Source of the DNA: a virus
DNA: 25,902 bases
IMG/VR virus record: IMGVR_UViG_3300046010_013721
Coordinates: 1-25,902 of that record
Strand: one strand, 5' to 3'
The notes under the pieces were generated by a model. That model was given only the letters and a program-made list of their open reading frames with translations. It did no database searches and was not told where the DNA came from. The position numbers and the translations under genes are program-made. Position 1 is the stretch's first letter. The number at the start of each line of letters is the position of its first letter. Below, one piece after another: positions 7,354-25,902 of this stretch.

Positions 7354-9192
7354 ATGGCTAATCGTAAGATATCATATACAACCAGAGACTTCGAAGGAAT
7401 AAGATCCGAACTTATACAGTACGTTCGTACTTACTATCCTGAACTAATTCAAAACTTCAACGACGCTTCGGTGTTCTCAGTATTTTTGGATTTAAATGCT
7501 GCGGTAGCCGACAACTTACATTACCACATTGATAGAAGTATACAAGAAACTGTGTTACAATACGCACAACAAAGATCTTCTGTCTACAACATTGCCAGAA
7601 CATACGGATTGAAACTACCAGGACAAAGACCATCCGTAGCTCTTGTTGATTTTTCAATAACAGTTCCAGCCTTTGGAGATAAAGAAGATGAAAGATATTT
7701 GGGACAACTTAGAAGAGGTTCTCAAGTTTTAGGTGCAGGACAAGTTTTTGAAAACGTTGAAGATATTGATTTTGCTTCACCGTATAATTCACAAGGATTT
7801 CCAAATAGATTAAAGGTGCCAAACTTCGATTCAAGTAATCGATTAGTAAACTATACAATTACAAAGAGAGAAGTTGTTGTTAATGGATTAACTAAAGTTT
7901 TCAAAAGAGTTATAAGTCCAAGTGATGTAAGACCATTCTTAGAAATTTTCCTACCTGAAAAAAACGTTTTAGGTGTTACAAGTGTTTTATTAAAAGATGG
8001 TACAAGTTACACAACAGTACCAACGGTTAATGAATTCTTAGGATTACAAAACAGATGGTATGAAGTTGACGCTTTAGCTGAAGATAGAATATTCATTGAA
8101 GACCCAACAAAAGTATCGGATCAGCCAGGTATTAAAGTAGGTAGATATATTCAAACACAAGATAGATTCATTACTGAATATACACCTGAAGGATTTTTGA
8201 AAATGACTTTTGGTGGAGGAACAAACACATCACAAGATGCTTTAGACCAATTCACAACCCTTGGAGTTCCTTTGAACTTACAATTGTATCAAAACAACAT
8301 GTCATTAGGATCTGCCTTAAGAGCTAACACAACATTGTTCATTCAATATAGAACGGGTGGAGGATTATCAACTAACTTAGGAACTAATGTAATTAATCAA
8401 ATCGGTACAGTTACATTCTTCGTTAACGGTCCCTCTGAAAATATTAACCAACAAGTTGTTGGATCTTTGAGATGTAACAACGTGACAGCCGCTATTGGTG
8501 GGGCGGGACAACCAACAGTAGAAGAAACAAGAAACTATGTTGCTTTTAACTTCTCATCACAAAACAGAGCGGTGACAGTTAATGACTACGAAGCTATTAT
8601 TAGAAAGATGCCATCTCAGTTTGGAGCACCTGCAAAAGTTGCGATAACTGAAAACAACAATAAGATTCAAGTTCAAATTTTATCATACGATACTTCAGGT
8701 AACCTAACATCAATTGTGTCAAACACTTTGAAACAAAACTTGGCAAATTATTTATCAAACTATAGAATGATGAATGACTATGTTTCAATCGAAACCGCTG
8801 AAGTTATTGATCTTAGTTTTGAAGTTTCAGTTGTATTAGATGCGACACAGAACCAAGGACAAGTTATTACAAATATTATCAATAAGTTGACAACATTCAT
8901 GAATCCACAAACAAGACAACTTGGACAGAACATTTATTTGTCTGAATTGAATAGTTTGATTCAAGATGAAAACGGAGTAATCACTGTTACAGGTATCAAC
9001 GTATTCAATGAAATTGGGGGACAATATTCATCATTCCAAACATCAATGGCTTATTCTGATGACGTTACAAGACAAATCAGACCTGTTGATGACACAATAT
9101 TTGCACAACCAAATCAAGTTTACCAAATCAGATATCCTCAGAAAGATATCAAGGTAAGAGTTAAGAACTTCCAGAACGTTCAGTTCTCTTAA
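7354..9192 (+). CDS. gp6: Baseplate wedge protein, gp6/J-like
   Basis: This 612-residue protein starts 5 bases after the gp25-like gene. Its N-terminus (ISYTTRDFEGIRSELIQYVRTYYPEL, then FNDASVFSVFLDLNAAVADNLHYHIDRSIQE) is the typical opening of gp6-like and baseplate J-like wedge proteins, which form the ring around the tail hub and bind gp25. The middle contains RAVTVNDYEAIIRKMPSQFG (about 409-428), a standard J-family segment. The C-terminal part has repeated strands followed by a QNIYLSELNSLIQDENGV helix, also usual in the family. Length is close to T4 gp6 (660). A TATTTAT heptamer inside the gene (8749-8755) is probably chance. It shares an operon with the gp25-like gene. Confidence 0.85.
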   Translation: MANRKISYTTRDFEGIRSELIQYVRTYYPELIQNFNDASVFSVFLDLNAAVADNLHYHIDRSIQETVLQYAQQRSSVYNIARTYGLKLPGQRPSVALVDFSITVPAFGDKEDERYLGQLRRGSQVLGAGQVFENVEDIDFASPYNSQGFPNRLKVPNFDSSNRLVNYTITKREVVVNGLTKVFKRVISPSDVRPFLEIFLPEKNVLGVTSVLLKDGTSYTTVPTVNEFLGLQNRWYEVDALAEDRIFIEDPTKVSDQPGIKVGRYIQTQDRFITEYTPEGFLKMTFGGGTNTSQDALDQFTTLGVPLNLQLYQNNMSLGSALRANTTLFIQYRTGGGLSTNLGTNVINQIGTVTFFVNGPSENINQQVVGSLRCNNVTAAIGGAGQPTVEETRNYVAFNFSSQNRAVTVNDYEAIIRKMPSQFGAPAKVAITENNNKIQVQILSYDTSGNLTSIVSNTLKQNLANYLSNYRMMNDYVSIETAEVIDLSFEVSVVLDATQNQGQVITNIINKLTTFMNPQTRQLGQNIYLSELNSLIQDENGVITVTGINVFNEIGGQYSSFQTSMAYSDDVTRQIRPVDDTIFAQPNQVYQIRYPQKDIKVRVKNFQNVQFS

Positions 9193-9288: not shown

Positions 9289-12200
9289 ATGACCAATTCT
9301 TACAGAATTAAAACACAAGTAGGGTCTGACCAAACAATAAATGTACAGATAGATCAAGAGTTCGACTTCTTAGAGATTCTATCTTTGAAGATTCAAAGTG
9401 ATGATATCTACACAAGAAACTGTGCAGACTATGGTGTTATTGTTGGTCGTGTTACCGCTAACGGAGGATTCGGATTACCAAATGTAAGAGTATCTGTTTT
9501 TGTACCTTTAGAACAAGAAGATGAGAATAACGAAATTATCTCAACACTTTATCCTTACAAATCAACTAATGACAAGAATGAAGATGGGTATAGATACAAT
9601 CTATTACCATATGAAAAATCTTATTCAAAACACGCCGCAACAGGGACATTCCCTTCAAGAAATGATGCTTTAACAAATCCAACAGTCGTTACTGTTTATG
9701 ACAAATACTATAAGTTTACAGTAAAGACTAATGATAGTGGTGACTACATGATCATGGGGGTCCCATTAGGAGACCAAACAGTGTTCATGGATTGTGATTT
9801 ATCTGATATAGGTGAGTTTAGTTTGACTCCACAAGACTTGATAAGAATGGGAATTGCAACAGAAAGTCAACTATCGGGAAATAACTTTAAATCCTCACCC
9901 GACTTACAATCATTACCACAAATCGTTTCACTTCAAGCAAATATAAGTGTGTCACCGTTTTGGGGACAACCTGAAGTTTGTCAATTAGCAATCAATAGAG
10001 TCGACTTCGATTTAAGGGACGATGCAAACATTGATATCCAACCTACTGCGGTATTCATGGGATCCATAATTTCTGCAAGTGACAGAAGAGTTATAAGAAA
10101 GAATTGTAGACCATCGACCGAAGCTGGAAATATCTGTGACTTAGTTTCAGGACCAGGTGAAATTCTTGCGATTAGACAAACTATTGGACAAGATAGTAAT
10201 GGTCGACCTGTATTGGAAGAATACGAATTTGATGGAGGTGCTAAAGTGATAGATGGAGATGGTACGTGGCTAGTAGATTTACCAATGAATTTGGATTACA
10301 TCATAACCAATGAATTTGGTGAAAGAACAATATCCTTAGATCCGACTATCGGTGTACCAACAAAAGGTAAATATAGGTTCAAAGTTAAGTGGGAGCAATC
10401 TCCTGATATGGGTGAGCAAGTGAAAAGAGCATATTATCTTTTACCGAATGTGAGAGAATATGGTTGGAGTTCGGCTTCATTAGACCCATCAATTTTAACC
10501 TCAGCATCTACTTCATATCAACAATATCAAAAGTCCTACGCCTTTTCTTTGGATTGGAACGAATATGCTGATCCAACGACAGCGATTAGTTGTCAGGATA
10601 CCTTTTATGAATTTGGATACAATAGAGTTTACACTCCATCACAATTCATTGACGGATATCATAATGGGTCAAACAGAGGAAGATTCATTGGAATAAAAGA
10701 AATATTAGATTCAACTTGTGACTCGACAAATAATAAGTTTCCGACGAACGATGGGGTTAAGAATTTCGATTTGATTTTTATTCTTTTCAACTTCTTTTTT
10801 AGTTTTATAACGTTGTTACTTATACCATTAATGGTTGTGGTTCACATATTGGCATTCTTATGGCCGATATTGAAAATTTTAATCACTTTTGTTTATGGAA
10901 CTCTAGCAACCTTTGTGTTTGTTTTATGTAAAATTGTTGATGCCATTCCATTTGTTAACATCAATTGTCCAAGACCACCATCGTTCAGAGATATTTTTAA
11001 TTCTTTAGGAGATCCTTTCAAGAATATTGCATTACCAACGATAACATATCCTGATTGTGAACTTTGTTCATGTACTAATGAAACACCTGAATCAAGTGCA
11101 AACGCTCAGGCGTTCGTTCAAGAATCTTTAAGAACGACATCTTTAACATTGTTGGCAGATTCACCAAATCCTGTTTCTTATGGTAATGTATTTGACGAAC
11201 AATATTGTACTGATGATACTTGGTTCAAATATTATAATACAACTTATTTCACCTTAGAACAACAAGATATTTCATGTAGAAAACAAACTGTTGAAAATCC
11301 TGCGAGTGTATACCAAACAGATGTGCAGAGACTTATTGCGGGTAATAACCAAAATATTGTAGGACAAAGAACCCCTGCAACAATTTGGTTTGCGGAGAGA
11401 CCAAGAGCTTCTTTCGATTTGACCTTGACTGAAAGACTTAATTTATTCAATCTTAAAAACCAATACTTTAATACTTCGGGAGGGTTCAACCAAGTTAGAA
11501 CATATGTTGCATCAGATGTTGCCGCTAATGCAGGACAGTATCATTACGACAATACAGTAACAATTTTATGTGATCCTGTTGCATTGGAAAATTTTGTGAC
11601 AGGAAGAGTGATGACATTCCAGAACCCATTCAATTCTTTGGATCCAAACGTGAATGGTGCTGAAACTAATTTCTCAGGATTTTCTTCATCAACAGGATAT
11701 GCTAAGAACCTTAAGGCAATCACAGTGAATTATGCTAATCCTGATAGCCCTGATCAATTATTAACTCAACAATATATTGTCAATCAATCGGCGGATACAA
11801 TACAAAACTGTTGGGTTTCCACAGTGACCGCGGAAACAGGGACACAATGGTATTACACCGATTGTGATGGTGTATATCATTCCGGAAACACATCAATAAC
11901 AGGTACTGTATGTGTAAACGATTTATTACCTTATGAAGGAGTTGCAATAACAAGTGCGAGATGTCAGGAACCTAAGTTTTTAATGTATTCAAAGGTTAAG
12001 TCTGATTGTGAATATTTCCAAGTTATCACAGCGATGACTTATAGTAATTTTTCATCTTTGAATCCACCAGTTTTCACGGGACAAAGAAGTTTGAATGAAA
12101 GATATATTGCAGGTGCAATGTATTTGTGGGAAGAACATCACGTAAAAACAGGATTTTTAGGTCTTGGACGTGGAGCTAAAACTTGGCAACCAATGTATGC

Positions 12201-14532
12201 GACAAGACCATATTATGCAATTCCTGATAACAAGGAGATTTGTGTTGTTGTATTACAAAGAGGTGTCGATCCCAACAGCACAAGACAAACAACAACAGTA
12301 GATATATCAAGAATATGTGGACAACCATATGGAACAGTGCAAGTAACATCAAAATACAAGTTGAACATCCCAATACAACCAGGATTAGTACTACCAAGAC
12401 ATGACCAATATTCTACAAATGAAAGTAGCCCAATATTTTTTGACTCATACATTTTCCAACCAGGTACAAATTATTCAGGATATACGACAAATATGCCTTC
12501 GTACTACTCAAGTTTGGATTCGACTAAAGTTGGGTCATTCCAAGTGAAACCTGGTAATACATATTCTATTTTAGATTCTACAAAGGTAACAGTGAATTCG
12601 GGAAGTAATGGGTCTTATTTGAAGGCTAATACTTCTGTGAATATATTTGGGATGTCACAATATCCAATAGTTAGTTCACAACCGAGGTTTAGTAATGTTG
12701 CTGCTTATTTAAATCCGAATAATGTCAATTGGTATACAGTATTCGGAAGATATTATACCGAAGTTTCACAGGGTAAAGAGATGGTGGGATATTGGAACGA
12801 TGAATATGTTGAGGGAGGTGCGTACTTCTTTGCATCAGTTGGAGGAAGTGTTGAAGAAGGATTGGCTTCTTTAAGATATGATAGATTTGTTTATTTCTCA
12901 CCTGTGTACTCAACTGCAACCACAATGTCTATGCAAGCTCAAACGCAAAAAATTGTTATGAGAACAGATAGACTCCCAACATCAACTTCACGATCAGGAT
13001 ATGAAAACAATAGTTATTTGTTACATCAAAATACTAATTTCAGTTTTTACTTTGTTAGTGATGAAGGTGCTGTTGAGTCTTATGACGATCAGGGTGCATC
13101 ATTTTTAATTAACGAAGCGACAGAAAACTTAAGCCAGTATGAAGAACAATTTACATCAACCTTTACATGCCAAGGATTGGTACCATTACAATGTTATTCT
13201 GGTGATTCAGAATCATTCGGTGTTAAACCATCTACAGATGCTTGTTATAAGAAGGCGGTTGTTAAAGGAGGGTGTTATGTTTTTGTAAGTAGAGTGATAT
13301 TGTCATTACCTAATGACTTCAAACAATTAGGTGAGTATAAAGCGAGAACTAGAGTAAACTTTGCGGCTTGTAGAGGGGTATTTGGACATACCTTTATCAA
13401 TAACTGGGTCAATGGTGTATTATATCATTTCCCTTTTAGAAATTTAAGATTTTTTAAATCTCCTTTAGATCCTGTAGATCCTAATGGACCATATAATGAG
13501 TTCTGTAAGGATACAATTGTCTTACATGAAAAGACTAATAATTTTTATTATAGATCATCACCATACAATTCATCGAGTAAAACATTTGTTGGAAAACAAA
13601 GAACACCTTCACCGAGAAGAAGAAACGAAAAAGAAATTTTATTCCCAACTACAGTCATGGATATGGGACCAAGGGATGCTTTCACTCAAGAGATTTCGTT
13701 GAATGAAGAATTCTATGGATATAATATGACTAATATACCAACGACTACATTCCAAGACCCTGCTGAAATTTTGAATCTTTTTATCATATCGAGACAAGTT
13801 AATTCGAAGTGGTTAGGTAATCTTGTTGGATTAGGAGATGGATCAATTAATGCTTTCTTTACACGAAGTAAGTCAAAGATAGATGGAGACTATGCTCAAA
13901 TGATTTCAATCAATTCAGAACTTGGTGTTCAAGAATTTAATTTTGAAGCATATAGTGCACAATCAGGATCAAGTACAAATAATCCATTCTTTGTTGGACA
14001 AGATAGAAGTGGTAATCCAGTGATTGGTGTTTTCTTTTCTTCTGATACCGTAACAAGAGACTTGGTTACTCCGAGAAGATTGATCAGAAACGACAATGCC
14101 ACATATAACAGTGCAGTTTATGATTATTTACCTGTTAAAACACAAGAAGTTCCATTCTATTCTTGGCAAACAAGAGATAGTAATGCAATCTTTGGTACCG
14201 AAAATAATGATTGGAGAACAGGATCAATTCAAAAAAATCTATATCAGAAGTTGAATAGAACTGATATTACATCAAACTATTTCATGGGTGAAAATCCAAG
14301 AGCAGATTTCATGAAGGGATACATTTATAATAGAAGTAATGTTTTATTCGGACCTGGAACTACAAGTGAAGCTTATCAGTTCGAAGGAGATAAAAACACT
14401 GCCGATTCACCGAGTTACGATCCGGTTAATTTAAATTCTTATTTCACTGTTGGATTACCTTTCCATTTCTATTTTGGATTATCGAGAGGTAAGAGTGCGA
14501 TGAATAGGTTTGTTAAAAAATATGTTGATTAA
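9289..14532 (+). CDS. Very large tail-region protein with a central membrane-like segment
   Basis: This 1747-residue protein is the largest in the window and I do not recognise a whole-protein family. Residues 48-172 look like a carboxypeptidase-regulatory-like beta-sandwich (YGVIVGRVTANGGFGLPNVRVSVFVP, later TNDSGDYMIMGVPLGDQTV), a module common in exposed or secreted proteins. Residues 495-548 form an almost unbroken hydrophobic stretch that could make two transmembrane helices, split by WPILK near 521-525. A Cys group follows (C565 region in NINCPRPP, then C590, C593, C595 in PDCELCSC). The remaining 1100 residues are Tyr/Asn/Ser-rich and look beta-rich. Context (between gp6-like and other tail genes) suggests a baseplate, fibre or host-contact component; the membrane segment could act during DNA entry. 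The start is the ATG at 9289; an ATG four bases earlier is out of frame. The stop overlaps the next start (TAATG). Confidence 0.85.
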   Translation: MTNSYRIKTQVGSDQTINVQIDQEFDFLEILSLKIQSDDIYTRNCADYGVIVGRVTANGGFGLPNVRVSVFVPLEQEDENNEIISTLYPYKSTNDKNEDGYRYNLLPYEKSYSKHAATGTFPSRNDALTNPTVVTVYDKYYKFTVKTNDSGDYMIMGVPLGDQTVFMDCDLSDIGEFSLTPQDLIRMGIATESQLSGNNFKSSPDLQSLPQIVSLQANISVSPFWGQPEVCQLAINRVDFDLRDDANIDIQPTAVFMGSIISASDRRVIRKNCRPSTEAGNICDLVSGPGEILAIRQTIGQDSNGRPVLEEYEFDGGAKVIDGDGTWLVDLPMNLDYIITNEFGERTISLDPTIGVPTKGKYRFKVKWEQSPDMGEQVKRAYYLLPNVREYGWSSASLDPSILTSASTSYQQYQKSYAFSLDWNEYADPTTAISCQDTFYEFGYNRVYTPSQFIDGYHNGSNRGRFIGIKEILDSTCDSTNNKFPTNDGVKNFDLIFILFNFFFSFITLLLIPLMVVVHILAFLWPILKILITFVYGTLATFVFVLCKIVDAIPFVNINCPRPPSFRDIFNSLGDPFKNIALPTITYPDCELCSCTNETPESSANAQAFVQESLRTTSLTLLADSPNPVSYGNVFDEQYCTDDTWFKYYNTTYFTLEQQDISCRKQTVENPASVYQTDVQRLIAGNNQNIVGQRTPATIWFAERPRASFDLTLTERLNLFNLKNQYFNTSGGFNQVRTYVASDVAANAGQYHYDNTVTILCDPVALENFVTGRVMTFQNPFNSLDPNVNGAETNFSGFSSSTGYAKNLKAITVNYANPDSPDQLLTQQYIVNQSADTIQNCWVSTVTAETGTQWYYTDCDGVYHSGNTSITGTVCVNDLLPYEGVAITSARCQEPKFLMYSKVKSDCEYFQVITAMTYSNFSSLNPPVFTGQRSLNERYIAGAMYLWEEHHVKTGFLGLGRGAKTWQPMYATRPYYAIPDNKEICVVVLQRGVDPNSTRQTTTVDISRICGQPYGTVQVTSKYKLNIPIQPGLVLPRHDQYSTNESSPIFFDSYIFQPGTNYSGYTTNMPSYYSSLDSTKVGSFQVKPGNTYSILDSTKVTVNSGSNGSYLKANTSVNIFGMSQYPIVSSQPRFSNVAAYLNPNNVNWYTVFGRYYTEVSQGKEMVGYWNDEYVEGGAYFFASVGGSVEEGLASLRYDRFVYFSPVYSTATTMSMQAQTQKIVMRTDRLPTSTSRSGYENNSYLLHQNTNFSFYFVSDEGAVESYDDQGASFLINEATENLSQYEEQFTSTFTCQGLVPLQCYSGDSESFGVKPSTDACYKKAVVKGGCYVFVSRVILSLPNDFKQLGEYKARTRVNFAACRGVFGHTFINNWVNGVLYHFPFRNLRFFKSPLDPVDPNGPYNEFCKDTIVLHEKTNNFYYRSSPYNSSSKTFVGKQRTPSPRRRNEKEILFPTTVMDMGPRDAFTQEISLNEEFYGYNMTNIPTTTFQDPAEILNLFIISRQVNSKWLGNLVGLGDGSINAFFTRSKSKIDGDYAQMISINSELGVQEFNFEAYSAQSGSSTNNPFFVGQDRSGNPVIGVFFSSDTVTRDLVTPRRLIRNDNATYNSAVYDYLPVKTQEVPFYSWQTRDSNAIFGTENNDWRTGSIQKNLYQKLNRTDITSNYFMGENPRADFMKGYIYNRSNVLFGPGTTSEAYQFEGDKNTADSPSYDPVNLNSYFTVGLPFHFYFGLSRGKSAMNRFVKKYVD

Positions 14533-19032: not shown

Positions 19033-22028
19033 TGGCAGTAACTCAGAAATATTTTTATCCTCCGAGACCCTCTTCAGGAGTTAATACATTCTCGGACAAC
19101 ATCGTGGGTTTACAACTCGTTGATGGAGGCGGACTTACGCAGGGTAATTTCGAATTTACAACAGCAGTCACTGAAAAGGTTAATAGAACCTTTAACATCG
19201 GTGCGTTCTCCGAACCAATAACTTTAGAGAATCTTGATATCGATAGAATTAATGAAAGTAGATTAATCTTCGCTAAAGAATTTAGAGTTTATCCAAACTT
19301 AGATTTAACCGAGGTTACTAACTTTTCAATGTATGGATCGTTGGCAAAGAGACTTGAAGTTTCAATTACAAGAATTATTAATCATTTTCCGGCTTCTTTG
19401 GATATAAGGTATATGAGTACCGAATCTTTAACAGGGTATACGGCAACAAATATCGTTTATGATTCAGTTAATGATGAAACAACGTTTACAATTGATGTTG
19501 ATAGAATTGTTAATCCATTTGCGATAGATTACTCAATATCTGCGGCAACAAATATAATTGCTAGAGAGATTGTAACATCCCCGTTAAGGAATTTAAACCA
19601 AACTTATTTGGATTATTGTATTGCAATCACTAACACAGGTAATACAACAAATCCTTATGATATCTTCAGAGTATTATCATTCGATCCATCAACAAGTTTA
19701 TCATCAGGATATCTTACGTTCTACGTTTCAGGGTCTCCTTTTGGTACTACGGCAACAACATATCAAAGCAACTTCCAAGTAAGACCTAACGACTTGGTTG
19801 TCGATCAAGTTTTTGCTGAAACTTTTAATGAGGTTGAAAAATTCTTACTTAATAGACTTATTGACCCACCATATACTGCAGTGTTCCAAGTACCTGCGGA
19901 GAATGAGAACGGACAGGTTTATACAAGTATTTCAACTTTAACATGGCCTTTAGATGGGGTTTGGAATTTAGACATTACATCTCCAAGCTTTGAATATTAT
20001 TTGGAACAAATAGGATATGTTGCGGCTGAATTAGACACATATAAGACAGATTTATTATCAAGATTTTTAACTCAAGAATCATTCAAAGAATTTGATACCA
20101 AGGAAAGAAAGGTTGAGAAAATCTTACAAATCTACGGTAGAAGTTTTGATGAGATAAAGAAATTCATTGATGGTATGGCTAACATGACTTCAGTTAACTA
20201 TACGGTACAAGATGATGTCCCTTCGTTATTATTAAAGAACTTGGCGGCTACCTTAGGTTGGGAACCAAATGTATCTCCAATTACTAATGAGAATTTCTTA
20301 GATTCTGTTTTTGGACAAACAAACACACCAACATATCCGGGTTATACAAGAGCCTTAACACCAACAGAGTTGAACTATCAGTTTTATAGAAACTTGATAT
20401 TAAATTCAGGTTATTTGTTTAGATCAAAGGGTACAAGAAAATCGGTTGAATTTTTATTAAGATTGGTTGGCGCACCTGAATCATTAGTTGAGTTCAACGA
20501 GACAATATATCTTGCGGATCAAAGAATCAATATGGAGCAATTTACAACACAATTTGCTCAAATATCAGGAGGTACTTATGCAAACAATGTACCATCCTTA
20601 GCTGCAGGACAAACTTATAAGATACAAGGACAAACTTACACAGGATTTACTTCGACAACCACCTATGAACAAGTTAGACTTGGAGCTTCCGATTATCCTG
20701 TGGACATTTTAGGTTATCCAAGTGCACCAACAGACACAGAAGATTATTTCTTCCAAAAGGGAGCTGGTTGGTATGAAAGTACACCACAACATAGAAGTCC
20801 TGAAATACCATTGGTAACACAAGTATTCACAGGTGCTAACCCTGACATACAAACACAATTAGAGCCGTTCACATATGGACAACTTTACTTAGAAAGATTT
20901 AGAGATTTTCCTTATATGACTGAAGGTTTCAAACTTCAAAAAACAATAGACAATAAAAAGACATGGGTTTCGGATGACGATGACTTAAGAATCTCAACAG
21001 ATGCGGGATATGATGCTTATTACTATATTAATAATGAGAAATTGGTAATGAACGTTAAAAACGTAGATTTATATTTGAATCCTGGTCAAGGTTTAGTTTA
21101 TGATGTTTGGACTCAATCGAGATTATATGACTACCCAATACCTGAAAGTGGAATGACATCACCATTCCCAACACCAGGAGGAGTTGATTGGACATTTATC
21201 AACCCACAACCGAAGAAAAAGACATTCTTTGAATTTGCACAAACATTTTGGCAAAACACAATCAATGTTAGAAATAGAATGTATATCACTGACGGACATA
21301 CCGGAGGTTATCCAACATTATCTTCAATCTTTTGGAAATATTTGGAACAAGAAAATACTATTGGAATCCCTAACAACCAATACACTTATCAGAAACTAAT
21401 TGATTATGTTGAAGGGTTAGGTCCATACTGGATGAAGTTGGTAGAACAAATGATTCCAGCAACAACAATATGGAATACAGGAACAAGATTCGAGAATTCA
21501 ATATTCCAAAAACAAAAGTATGTCTACAGAAGACAAAGAGGATGTCAGTTTGTACCGGTACCTGCAGACTGTTGTTATATCATAGGAAACGTTTTCAATT
21601 ATGACTGTTCAACAGAGTTTGTTGAATTTGGAGTATATCCATGGTTAAATGGAGATGCATCTGTTAGTAACTTCCAAGGAATACTTGCAAACAGATTACA
21701 GAACTTTTTATCTGAGGAAGGACTTACACTTAATGAATGTATAACAAGTACACTTACAACACAGTGGTATGTTGATATGAGAATTGGGGATGAAGTTTTA
21801 ATATTTGCACCTTTCTATGAAGGATTTGGGTTGAATGATGTTCCAAGTAGATCACTTTGGAAAAACACGCTTTCATCAAATTTAGATAATTTATACAATT
21901 ATGGATTGAATTACTTCATTAATGGGAATATATTGAATGTTACGAATATGGATTGTGTTCCAAAAAACCTAGATCAAACTTTGAGTTTGAATGTAGGTAT
22001 AAACTTATCAATAAGTTGTGTTAATTAA
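19032..22028 (+). CDS. Large tail protein with a tail-protein-I-like segment, 998 aa
   Basis: This 998-residue protein is coupled by TAATG on both sides. Its middle part looks like the tail protein I / baseplate family of contractile tails: a helical segment (LLSRFLTQESFKEFDTKERK..KILQIYGRSFDEIKKFIDGM, about 341-385), then LLKNLAATLGWEP (about 402-414), and YRNLILNSGYLFRSKGTRKSVEFLLRLVGAPES (452-484), where the KGT...EFLL core is the most typical feature. Flanking N- and C-terminal regions are unknown and beta-rich. The C-terminal part includes a Cys group (GCQFVPVPADCCY, about 837-849). It probably links the baseplate to fibre or tip proteins. The family resemblance is from memory of motif pattern, so moderate. 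Confidence 0.75.
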   Translation: MAVTQKYFYPPRPSSGVNTFSDNIVGLQLVDGGGLTQGNFEFTTAVTEKVNRTFNIGAFSEPITLENLDIDRINESRLIFAKEFRVYPNLDLTEVTNFSMYGSLAKRLEVSITRIINHFPASLDIRYMSTESLTGYTATNIVYDSVNDETTFTIDVDRIVNPFAIDYSISAATNIIAREIVTSPLRNLNQTYLDYCIAITNTGNTTNPYDIFRVLSFDPSTSLSSGYLTFYVSGSPFGTTATTYQSNFQVRPNDLVVDQVFAETFNEVEKFLLNRLIDPPYTAVFQVPAENENGQVYTSISTLTWPLDGVWNLDITSPSFEYYLEQIGYVAAELDTYKTDLLSRFLTQESFKEFDTKERKVEKILQIYGRSFDEIKKFIDGMANMTSVNYTVQDDVPSLLLKNLAATLGWEPNVSPITNENFLDSVFGQTNTPTYPGYTRALTPTELNYQFYRNLILNSGYLFRSKGTRKSVEFLLRLVGAPESLVEFNETIYLADQRINMEQFTTQFAQISGGTYANNVPSLAAGQTYKIQGQTYTGFTSTTTYEQVRLGASDYPVDILGYPSAPTDTEDYFFQKGAGWYESTPQHRSPEIPLVTQVFTGANPDIQTQLEPFTYGQLYLERFRDFPYMTEGFKLQKTIDNKKTWVSDDDDLRISTDAGYDAYYYINNEKLVMNVKNVDLYLNPGQGLVYDVWTQSRLYDYPIPESGMTSPFPTPGGVDWTFINPQPKKKTFFEFAQTFWQNTINVRNRMYITDGHTGGYPTLSSIFWKYLEQENTIGIPNNQYTYQKLIDYVEGLGPYWMKLVEQMIPATTIWNTGTRFENSIFQKQKYVYRRQRGCQFVPVPADCCYIIGNVFNYDCSTEFVEFGVYPWLNGDASVSNFQGILANRLQNFLSEEGLTLNECITSTLTTQWYVDMRIGDEVLIFAPFYEGFGLNDVPSRSLWKNTLSSNLDNLYNYGLNYFINGNILNVTNMDCVPKNLDQTLSLNVGINLSISCVN

Positions 22029-24208
22029 TGGCGTCGTTTAATTATGTGGTTAATGTTACAGGGGATTGCCAGAACGATGGTACTGGATCAATCCAAGTCG
22101 GATTTTCAGGAGGAACTCCTCCTTATACCGTGCAGTGGATAAGTCCGTATAATAGTGGAGATATCTTCAACTATTTGGCCTATGATTATAGTTTTATTGA
22201 CCCAACATCATATCTTTTAACATATTCGGTCTTAACAAACCTTTCTGCCAATACATATACATTTAGGGTAAACGACTCTACAGTACCTGTCAACTTAGAA
22301 TATGCTGTAAACGTTCCTGTTTCATCAGGAAACTGTACAAGTATTATCGATGTTTCTGCAACAACATGTAATCAAAGTAATGGTAGTGTTACTGCTGATG
22401 CAAGTTCAGATTATTCTGACACAGCCTACATTCTTTTTACTTCAAATAATGAAATGGTTCAATCAGGAATTACTGCATTGGATCAATTAACGTTCCAAGG
22501 ATTATCTGCGGGAACGTATTACGTTTCTTCCATAGATTATGGTGGATGCACAGGTACATCACAATCTTTTGTGGTTAATCCATCAGTTGAAGTCGATTAT
22601 GGATTTTATCCTGTTGATGATACACAATGTGGATCTGCATCAGGTAGAATTATTGTGACGGGTCAGACAGGAGTTCCACCGTGGACATACATTTGGAATG
22701 ATGGAAGTACGGGAAGCACTCTTACAGGATTGACTGCTGGTACATATAGTGTTAAAGTAACAGATGCGACAGGATGTTCCACAATCAAGAGCCAAGCCAT
22801 TGGTCAAATAGACCCTGTAGGTTTAGGAGGGTTTACGGTAGATCAAGTACCAACTTGTTTGAACTCTGATGGTATCATAACAATGACAATAACAGGAGGA
22901 ACAGGTCCATATTACTATTCTGCGTCCACAGGATCAATAGATGTTAGTTATTTAAAGACATTCCAATTAGTTGGAGTTCCTGCAGGATCTTATAACTTCA
23001 TGGTAACAGATGCGGCGTTATGTAAATTCACAACGGGTATCGATTTAGCAACAGAAAATGGTATTTCTGATATTATTCTATCTGTTTCACCAAGTTCATG
23101 TAGTAACGCCGATGGATCTATTTTAGTAACTGCATTGGGAGGAACTTCACCATTTACATTTACCTTAATTTATCCTGACTCATCGACTTTTTCAATAACA
23201 TCCAACGCAGCTTCTTACACTTTTGGTGAATTATCAGGAGGAACCTATACAATCATATTAGAAGACTCCACAGGTTGTTATTTCTTAAGTGAAAGTGCCT
23301 TATTATCAAGTAATTCATTTACTATAACTGCGACTACAACAGGAACAACTTGTTCTGCAAGTAATGGGACCATTGTTGTTGAGAAATCTACAGGTGGTAT
23401 TGCACCATTTGACTACTCACTTGATGGAATTCAAAACATTATAGATACAACAGCGAGTGCTGTTACATTTACTAATGTTACTGCGGGACAACATCAAATT
23501 TCTGTAACTGATTCATCAGGATGTACTCAAACAACTCAAGTTTATATTAGTCCGAGTACACCACTTTCATACAATTTGTATTCAACATCTTGTGGTCAGG
23601 GTTCTGAAGGTACAATTACAGCATTTATCTCTGATGGAATACCTCCGTTCACCTATGAGTGGTCAAGTAACGTTGCATCTAATCCACAAGAGATTAAAGT
23701 AACAGGATTAACTGCGGGAACCTATTCATTAACAGTTATCGATTCAAGTGGATGTAGTCAAACGAGGACAACAACAATCGATTGTGATAAAACATATGTT
23801 TCATATCAAAGTTATGTGATGGGAGCAGAAATATTTTCTGTAGTTGCCGGAACAAAGAGAGGTATGTTACAATTGATGAATGAAGGATTCGATGATTTAA
23901 CACAAGGAAAAACAAACTGTGTCTTAGTTTCCGCTGATTTTACTGCAAAAGTTGAAATACAACCACAAGGTACAGTATTAGAACAATATTTTTATACAAG
24001 CACAAGTTTAGTTCAAGCGCCACCTGATAGTTTATACTATTCTACTGTCGAAACATTACTTGAAAGTATTTGGGGAATTGGTGATGTGACAATCGATCAA
24101 TTAACTAATGAAATTACAATACAGACAGATAGAAGTGAAACATCATTAAATAATCAAGAAGTGAAAGTTGAACTAATTATAGTATACGACATTAAGTGCT
24201 TGACATGA
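22028..24208 (+). CDS. SprB-repeat tail-region protein
   Basis: This 726-residue protein consists of about seven SprB-like repeats followed by a unique C-terminal domain (588-726). Repeats run roughly 5-100, 107-184, 190-262, 267-340, 351-425, 433-508 and 513-587. Each typically opens with a Cys followed by a small-residue/G-rich segment, then GG(T/I)xP(F/Y)xY, then LTAGTYxVxVxDxxGC. Cys pairs at the two ends of repeats (114/174, 201/250, 277/332, 358/417, 442/499, 522/576) fit the family. SprB is the cell-surface adhesin of gliding Flavobacterium, and these repeats are typical of Bacteroidota surface proteins. Here the gene lies in a phage tail operon, coupled by TAATG to the 998-aa gene and by ATGA to the next. 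It is probably a fibre or adhesin-like stalk; the C-terminal domain may bind the virion or the receptor. Confidence 0.85.
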   Translation: MASFNYVVNVTGDCQNDGTGSIQVGFSGGTPPYTVQWISPYNSGDIFNYLAYDYSFIDPTSYLLTYSVLTNLSANTYTFRVNDSTVPVNLEYAVNVPVSSGNCTSIIDVSATTCNQSNGSVTADASSDYSDTAYILFTSNNEMVQSGITALDQLTFQGLSAGTYYVSSIDYGGCTGTSQSFVVNPSVEVDYGFYPVDDTQCGSASGRIIVTGQTGVPPWTYIWNDGSTGSTLTGLTAGTYSVKVTDATGCSTIKSQAIGQIDPVGLGGFTVDQVPTCLNSDGIITMTITGGTGPYYYSASTGSIDVSYLKTFQLVGVPAGSYNFMVTDAALCKFTTGIDLATENGISDIILSVSPSSCSNADGSILVTALGGTSPFTFTLIYPDSSTFSITSNAASYTFGELSGGTYTIILEDSTGCYFLSESALLSSNSFTITATTTGTTCSASNGTIVVEKSTGGIAPFDYSLDGIQNIIDTTASAVTFTNVTAGQHQISVTDSSGCTQTTQVYISPSTPLSYNLYSTSCGQGSEGTITAFISDGIPPFTYEWSSNVASNPQEIKVTGLTAGTYSLTVIDSSGCSQTRTTTIDCDKTYVSYQSYVMGAEIFSVVAGTKRGMLQLMNEGFDDLTQGKTNCVLVSADFTAKVEIQPQGTVLEQYFYTSTSLVQAPPDSLYYSTVETLLESIWGIGDVTIDQLTNEITIQTDRSETSLNNQEVKVELIIVYDIKCLT
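22040..23788 (+). repeat. Seven tandem SprB-like protein repeats (about 75-95 codons each)
   Basis: The repeats are visible at the protein level, with recurring LTAGTY/LSAGTY/LSGGTY/VTAGQH and D(A/S)(T/S)GC signatures. They are divergent in DNA, so this is not a recent duplication. Copies 3, 6 and 7 are closest to the standard pattern; copy 2 lacks the GGTPPY part and copy 1 lacks the closing GC. Confidence 0.75.
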
Positions 24209-24627
24209 CAAGAGTAGAAATTTTAGCGGTAACGGGTACAACCCCAATAAATGTATATGTCTCAGATTATTATGGTAATTATGAGACATTAATTTATACC
24301 ATCACCTCAGGTAGTACGATTCCTCCTGCCACAGGTGCAACTCTATCATCAGTATTTGCAACGGCACCTGCTATTTTGTTGAAAATGGTAGATGCGAATG
24401 GGTGTGAAAAGATAGAATTACTTGAATGTAGATTCGGTTGTTCGTTCTTAATTACAATCCAAGCTGAATCTTGTGTAACAGATATTACAATAAGCACATC
24501 CTCTTGTGATGTGGGAGGTTTGGCGATTGTGGAAGCAAGTTGTGTGACAACATTAAACATTCAAGAACCAAATTGTGGAACATCAATAGTGGTTCAGGAC
24601 CCTAATTGTGGGTTAGTTTTGAACTGA
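24205..24627 (+). CDS. Small virion-operon protein with an 11-residue Cys-led repeat
   Basis: I prefer ATG 24205 (140 residues), whose ATGA overlaps the previous stop; a GTG at 24196 would add three residues. The N-terminal half (1-75) has TTPINVYVSDYYGN and ends in MVDANGCEKIELLEC, recalling the end of a SprB repeat and the first domain of the next gene. From C79 on, cysteines appear at 79, 90, 101, 113, 124 and 135, that is, every 11 residues with one 12. Each unit reads C-x3-(I/L)-x-(I/V)-x4, as in CVTDITISTSS and CGTSIVVQDPN. This suggests a small beta-solenoid-like stack with a cysteine ladder. There is no signal peptide or membrane segment. The role is unknown; position suggests a fibre tip, cap or connector. 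Confidence 0.8.
   Translation: MTRVEILAVTGTTPINVYVSDYYGNYETLIYTITSGSTIPPATGATLSSVFATAPAILLKMVDANGCEKIELLECRFGCSFLITIQAESCVTDITISTSSCDVGGLAIVEASCVTTLNIQEPNCGTSIVVQDPNCGLVLN
24439..24624 (+). repeat. About 5.5 copies of a 33-base (11-residue) Cys-led repeat
   Basis: Codons for Cys at 24439, 24472, 24505, 24541, 24574 and 24607 are spaced 33, 33, 36, 33 and 33 bases apart. All six use TGT. The last two full units share the ending PN and the Cys-Gly start, and so look the youngest. The repeat is obvious in protein but only partly in DNA. Confidence 0.75.
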
Positions 24628-24693: not shown

Positions 24694-25902
24694 ATGAGCT
24701 TATATTCTATATTTGTTGTTAATACTGCTCCTGGTTGTGATAACTCAATTGAACAACAATTAAATGTTTCTGGTTGTACCAATTATATTGTTAGATTAGC
24801 TTCTAACTCTAACGCGTTAGGTCCGTTCGACATTTATTTGGATGCTATTGCACCTGCTAATATATTATATTCTGCAGTCACAAGATACGACATGTATAAT
24901 GGTGTTGTTGTTGAGTTAGAATGTACTCTTACACCAACTCCAAGTAACACACCAACTCCGACACCTACAGTTACAACAGGATTAACTCCAACACCTACTG
25001 AAACAAATACACCAACACCAACTAATACACCATCAATTTCTGCAACTGAAACAAGTACTCCAACTCCAACAGGTACACCAACTCAAACACCTTCTAATAC
25101 ACCGACAAGTACTGCGGGTGCAACATCAACGCCAACACCTACTGAAACACCAACAACAACACCTACAACAACCACAACACCAACACCTACAACAACTACA
25201 ACATTAACAGCATCGCCAACGCCAACTGAGACATCAACAGCAACTCCAACACAAACACAAACCGCGACACAAACTTCAACACCAACACCTACAACAACCA
25301 CGACATTAACCGCATCACCAACACCAACTGAAACTCCTGCAGCAACCGCAACAGAAACACCTACACCAACACCAACAGAAACACCAACAGAAACACCTAC
25401 ACCTACAGTAACAAACACACCAAGCGTGACTGCATCAGAAACAGAAACTCCAACTCCTACTCCAACGGAAACACCTACAAATACACCAACACCTTCAATA
25501 ACAGCGTCACCTACTGAAACGCCAACACCAACACCTTCGATAACTGCGTCTCCAACTGAGACAATGACACCGACACCGACAGCTACGTTAACACCTACTG
25601 AAACGGTTACACAAACTCCGTCGCCAACGGAAACGGCTACACCAACAATGACACCAACTGAGTCAATGACTCCAACACCTTCAGTGACTGTAACAGCAAC
25701 GCCAAGTATGACTCCTACTGAGTCACCAACTCCTACGGCAACAATAACACCTACAGAGTCACCAACTCCAACACCAACACCGGCTCCATTACAAGGTTAT
25801 CTATTAATAGAACCTCAAGCGGTAAATGCACAGTTTAACGGATGGATGCAATCACAAGGATCATCATGGAGAGGATTTTGGATTAATACACCAACAATTC
25901 TC
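24694..25902 (+). CDS. Thr/Pro-rich stalk protein (probable tail fibre), 3' partial
   Basis: The frame opens with ATG at 24694 and has no stop up to the window end, giving 403 codons. The N-terminal domain (1-79) begins [21 protein letters not shown] and includes [12 protein letters not shown] and VVVELEC. Residues 80-365 are almost purely Thr and Pro with Glu, Ser, Ala and Asn, as in TPTPTETPT. Then a non-repeat domain begins ([19 protein letters not shown]...WRGFWIN). The layout is that of a fibre: an anchor domain, a long extended stalk, and a C-terminal functional domain that continues outside the window. Such Thr-rich stalks in other systems may be glycosylated; nothing here shows that. 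The start is supported by the upstream TATTTATT motif and by the good N-terminal domain. A minus-strand Val/Gly-rich frame at 25083-25418 is only its shadow. Confidence 0.85.
24931..25788 (+). repeat. Low-complexity Thr/Pro tract of about 286 codons
   Basis: The tract is made of irregular (T-P)n and T-E-T units. One 19-residue unit ([19 protein letters not shown]) occurs twice, at 25177-25233 and 25279-25335, and an 11-residue unit ([11 protein letters not shown]) twice, at 25489-25521 and 25531-25563. Thr and Pro codons vary, so the repetition is clearer in protein than in DNA. Confidence 0.85.

Follow-up and report, generated by a model that had tools for sequence, protein, structure and literature searches.

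The locus and its genes

The window, that is, the whole 25,902-nucleotide stretch of viral DNA analysed here, carries near its end a small gene whose 140-residue product terminates in a series of cysteine-led units, referred to below as the ladder. The features of this region are as follows.

22028..24208, + strand: upstream SprB-repeat protein (PF13573, E 8.1e-26)
24205..24627, + strand: gene of the 140-aa ladder protein (open reading frame and translation; homologues at the matching place in a large phage family)
24205..24429, + strand: N-terminal domain of ~75 aa (alignment, AlphaFold2, BFVD matches, PT-stalk fusions in relatives)
24439..24624, + strand: cysteine-led ladder of five complete units followed by a shorter final one (translation, relatives)
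24439..24471, + strand: unit 1, CSFLITIQAES (11 residues)
24472..24504, + strand: unit 2, CVTDITISTSS (11 residues)
24505..24540, + strand: unit 3, CDVGGLAIVEAS (12 residues)
24541..24573, + strand: unit 4, CVTTLNIQEPN (11 residues)
24574..24606, + strand: unit 5, CGTSIVVQDPN (11 residues)
24607..24624, + strand: last, short unit, CGLVLN
24694..25902, + strand: downstream PT-rich stalk protein, running off the window (phrog_15511, E 2.2e-13)

The start ATG of the ladder gene at 24205 overlaps the stop of the SprB-repeat gene as ATGA, and a GTG at 24196 offers an in-frame alternative start. SprB repeats are known from Bacteroidota gliding adhesins; those at 22028-24208 lie inside a phage tail gene cluster. 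Baseplate wedge proteins are encoded upstream of the ladder gene, and one of them (7354-9192) shares 26% identity with its counterpart in Flavobacterium phage immuto. The tail genes also include one for 1747 residues (9289-14532) with no significant Pfam match. On the downstream side, the PT-rich protein begins with a domain of ~77 residues that is well conserved in relatives, and its stalk varies.

A conserved cysteine-led repeat

The eight cysteines of the window protein are residues 67, 75, 79, 90, 101, 113, 124 and 135. The last six are spaced by 11, 11, 12, 11 and 11 residues, with residue 79 at nucleotide 24439 and residue 140 ending at 24624; both the spacing and the coordinates reported for them in the first-pass annotation proved exact on retranslation. 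Its description of a repeat with alternating hydrophobic residues that closes the protein is likewise borne out by the window protein and by relatives. When eight cysteines were placed at random in 140 positions, a run of at least six at 11-12 spacing arose in 8 of 2,000,000 placements, a frequency that applies to a period picked after the fact.

IMG/VR scans that started from the window protein, from alignments of its family or from the upstream 998-aa gene yielded 78 distinct homologues, 61 of which carry the ladder. Within these 61, the next cysteine falls at +11 or +12 in 170 of the 173 testable positions (ladder cysteines with at least 12 residues after them), so that relatives keep both the cysteines and the spacing, the feature on which the first-pass annotation had staked its reading. 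The unit consensus, drawn from 90 distinct 11-mers and 19 distinct 12-mers, is C-x-[F/V/T]-x-[I/L/V]-x-[I/V/L]-[Q/E]-x-[P/S/A]-[S/N], with cysteine at position 1 and hydrophobics at 3, 5 and 7; the 12-residue units have a single residue inserted ahead of the second hydrophobic. Cysteine is retained far more strictly than all other ladder residues. Its codons are mixed, TGT and TGC both being used, and pS exceeds pN in the ladder tails of the six pairs compared (a comparison confined to the tails, some out-of-register N-domain figures being left out). The excess of synonymous divergence and the mixed codons together indicate that selection acts on the protein. The ladder of ~11-residue units is a true repeat under purifying selection. 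Its composition (about 34% I, V, L and F combined, no arginine, 0.3% lysine, 0.1% histidine) and strict alternation look like short beta-strands as far as sequence can tell.

The window protein has no Pfam, PHROG or NCBIfam match at E<=1, and the best PHROG match among 58 relatives (E 0.0042) has no function. PDB sequence searches that started from the window protein, from the profile of its family and from either ladder, the second of which is described below, returned nothing significant, in keeping with the earlier statement that the repeat belongs to no known family. No paper on a cysteine-led 11-residue repeat of this kind was found in the literature. Two further scans were set aside: a degenerate DNA pattern of five cysteines at 11 spacing hit at least 118 genome stretches that appeared to be wrong-frame, low-complexity or short tandem repeats rather than genuine ladders, and a pattern for 12-residue units returned only the known ladder family and noise.

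Changes in unit number and alternative tails

The survey of copy number that had been suggested for relatives revealed one to six units per protein, differing by whole units: among the 61 ladder homologues, two have one unit, ten have 2, 14 have 3, 16 have 4, 11 have 5 and eight have 6. A sister phage (L003) differs from the window by a clean, in-frame gap of 33 nt, exactly one unit, which falls within units 4-5 between near-identical flanks. A quick tree built from the 998-aa neighbour in 46 phages implies that the number of units changed at least 25 times, a count that recombination could inflate.

The ladder can also be replaced altogether, its slot in relatives then holding PT stalks, LamG-like tails or others. 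At the matching locus, its place is taken by an ITQ[N/S]G tail in three relatives (L022, L024, L040), by an FQNxDDDYVFQFMD tail in three others (L039, L070, L074), and by a PT-rich stalk leading into a large C-terminal domain in four more (L076, L080, L081, L083). The N-terminal domain is retained whichever tail is carried, and also forms the base of the four PT-stalk proteins. Tandem duplicates of the small gene occur in L052, L053, L054 and L082; in L053 and L054, one copy has ladder units and the other has none. Strand-like short repeats (ITQNG and FQNxDDDYVFQFMD in the relatives just named, LQEDYxxLxQED in L402 and L401, reverse strand) end proteins in the ladder's slot or in neighbouring genes, and such short C-terminal tails possibly form a wider class of terminal beta-tags.

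The N-terminal domain (residues 1-75) is modelled by AlphaFold2 as mainly beta, with pLDDT mostly 60-80, and is probably a small beta-sandwich. A homologue (L094) matches three predicted structures in BFVD from uncultured Caudovirales phage (A0A6J5L8W1, A0A6J5L892 and A0A6J5L5Q5; E<=3.4e-4); the entries are uncharacterised, and two of the three match over about the length of this domain. PDB fold searches gave no match at E<=0.001, leaving scattered Ig/transthyretin-like and T9SS-CTD-like hints. Kinship with the N-terminal part of the PT protein encoded downstream was considered and dropped, the hhalign probability being only 16%. In a 322-kb phage (G020), the domain occurs three times (L385, L387, L388), once ahead of the PT stalk of a protein of >500 aa.

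A second carrier of the ladder

A pattern scan for four cysteines 11 residues apart with intervening hydrophobics retrieved the small-protein family and only one other protein. This second carrier is a 677-aa protein encoded on a 297-kb contig (L196), with the ladder again at its C-terminus (for example CNFGFDVVDEG CAFGFDVVDTD CGVGFSVSNPN C); its relatives have 3-6 ladder cysteines or none. Its gene ends 19 bp before the next, which encodes a PT-rich protein of 1674 aa containing Laminin_G_3 domains (E 1.1e-35); both ladder carriers sit directly upstream of PT-rich genes. The 998-aa neighbour is ~50% identical between the window and the phages of L196 and L357, which places them in one wider lineage. 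The small protein was not found in the L196 phage, and where the small protein bears the ladder, PT stalks or other domains close the homologue of the 677-aa protein instead. Among the records scanned, several of which are fragments, no genome had the ladder on both proteins according to a pattern that misses 12-residue units and some others. The ladder is thus borne by two proteins unrelated to each other in one phage lineage. Since the small-family profile reaches the ladder of the second carrier at E 0.0028, a shared origin of the module is possible.

Its position immediately ahead of a fibre gene might suggest that the small gene encodes a helper or chaperone, which assists assembly of the neighbouring fibres and stays out of the virion. 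Such a role is scarcely credible: in relatives, the N-terminal domain is joined to PT stalks that carry large C-terminal domains, and the second carrier is of structural type and large in its own right. The neighbouring genes and the exchanges with PT stalks and lectin-like domains make a tail-fibre setting likely, and the ladder itself probably belongs to a tail fibre as one of its modules.

Both carriers also have a CxxxC or CxxC head before the ladder. Conceivably, successive cysteines and the head (C-x7-C-x3-C, or CPNC) bind metal or an Fe-S centre in a column along the axis, and the far stricter conservation of cysteine would suit this arrangement. With one cysteine per unit and almost no histidine, any ligands would have to be cysteines only and a site would need several chains; moreover, CPNC is kept in two relatives whose ladder is missing (L365, L369). 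A metal column accordingly seems quite improbable.

Phages and hosts

The ribosomal protein bS21 (PF01165) is encoded by all tested contigs of at least 297 kb, as well as by a 149-kb contig whose ladder protein is 80% identical to that of the window. Freshwater Bacteroidetes bS21 jumbo phages have been described (PMC9723584), and bS21 on the long contigs of relatives fits such phages. The carriers are large lake viruses of bacteria, jumbo phages whose hosts are probably freshwater Bacteroidota; the window, a 25.9-kb fragment, would be expected to share both bS21 and host. Neither the named phages of the phage collection nor the bacterial and archaeal genomes searched contained a relative of the ladder protein.

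From single chain to a proposed oligomeric fibre

The first-pass annotation envisaged a stacked beta-solenoid. Solenoids are often predicted well from one chain. In two AlphaFold2 monomer runs, based on alignments of 41 and 58 sequences, the ladder came out as coil at pLDDT 33-58; this lends the solenoid no support, at a confidence too low to exclude coils, and equally fails to amount to the confidently disordered tail named earlier as the contrary outcome. A single-chain solenoid or beta-meander with a cysteine ladder on one face, possibly with each coil made of two 11-residue units, would account for the regular period, the alternating hydrophobics and the cysteines, which share the parity of the inward-pointing residues. 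However, the two models lack strands, a single strand per coil is too short, and ladders with odd and with even numbers of units are both frequent, which fits poorly with pairs of units in each coil. On these grounds a solenoid appears unlikely.

One strand of ~7 residues and one turn of ~4 residues per unit would be too short for an ordinary coil of one chain. The total number of cysteines is odd in 25 of the 61 ladder proteins and even in the rest, which argues against obligatory intrachain pairing and is better accommodated by rings between chains. Together with the tolerance of every unit number, these features make an interchain structure the simplest reading.

It could instead be argued that the tail is mostly flexible and that its cysteines serve as sticky ends, forming interchain disulfides or attaching by their thiols to another protein, for example the neighbouring PT stalk, with strands appearing only on partner binding. 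Low-confidence coil in the models, tolerance of 1-6 units and the PT-rich genes directly downstream of both carriers are all compatible with this idea, but the composition is hydrophobic and beta-branched, unlike that of a disordered tail, and sticky cysteines would not need strict spacing. A sticky tail is hence also unlikely.

The favoured explanation is an oligomeric beta-fibre. The N-terminal domain would serve as the anchor on the tail or baseplate, and several copies of the ladder chain would associate. Each unit would contribute one inward-facing strand (cysteine at 1 and hydrophobics at 3, 5 and 7) followed by a turn (residues 8-11), thereby building one storey of a thin, parallel-chain beta-fibre in which the cysteines of all chains form a ring. 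Burial could stabilise these rings, as could metal or disulfides between chains that form once the phage is released into oxic water, and fibre length would be tuned by unit number. The strand-plus-turn pattern of the units, the gain and loss of whole units, the two carriers and the replacement of the ladder by PT stalks or short tails are direct observations; a place in the virion, the beta-fibre, its oligomeric state and the cysteine rings would follow from the model.

Against such a fibre stand the single-chain AlphaFold2 runs, which form no ladder strands and may, as monomer runs, miss an interchain fold, and also ladders of only 1-2 units, which are short for a fibre. On tail-associated proteins of bS21 jumbo phages, the ladder acts as a C-terminal module that varies in length and can be swapped for other tails; that it is built as an oligomeric beta-fibre with one cysteine ring per storey comes close to an even prospect. 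The bolder proposal, of a new fold of this type serving as a tip or shaft, portable and of tunable length, which jumbo phages shuttle between unrelated tail proteins in place of PT stalks and lectin-like domains, is tentative and on balance rather doubtful.

Phage tail fibres draw on a limited range of known repeat folds, and the cysteine-led 11-residue unit is missing from the libraries searched. Natural variants of 1 to 6 units would constitute a ready series for the effects of fibre length and cysteine chemistry on assembly and adsorption, and the ladder provides an example of a short terminal module on two unrelated proteins of a single phage lineage.

Comparison with known systems

Among the known repeats, SprB (PF13573) is of surface or tail type and lies in the same gene cluster as the ladder. 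Its 37-position model is longer than the ladder unit, and the ladder protein has no Pfam match.

The beta-helix of Tenebrio and other beetle antifreeze proteins (TmAFP) is built on a 12-residue TCTxSxNCxxAx repeat (PMC8038014), and thus resembles the ladder in being a cysteine-bearing repeat of near-equal length, with regular cysteine spacing and a variable number of repeats. In each of its coils, two cysteines are joined by a disulfide inside the core, and the ice-binding face is of TCT type, whereas the ladder has neither TCT nor TCTxSxNCxxAx, only one cysteine per unit, and odd cysteine totals in many proteins.

T4 gp5 carries a triple-stranded beta-helix with a VxGxxxxx repeat (PMC4576200), formed by a trimer of intertwined chains. 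As in the ladder, this is a C-terminal repeat of a phage tail protein whose unit number sets its length, and its tip part holds a metal ion. The VxGxxxxx pattern is not matched by the ladder, where the period is 11 or 12 and glycine is not conserved; gp5 has no cysteine-led unit and belongs to a different part of the baseplate.

A parallel in construction is the beta-bracelet of the Orsay virus delta protein, a pentameric fibre in which each repeat, a 5-residue strand with inward hydrophobics and a 3-residue loop, forms one barrel (PMC7565637). With 8 residues per repeat and no cysteine in its consensus, delta differs from the 11-12 residues and obligatory cysteine of the ladder, and no kinship is claimed. 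The likeness, which is one of sequence pattern, lies in the alternating hydrophobics (3, 5 and 7, with cysteine at 1) and in the logic of a short strand and turn, the loop of delta being short and acidic or polar and each of its repeats adding one storey. Delta demonstrates that repeats of such logic can stack, each unit making a small barrel to which five chains contribute.
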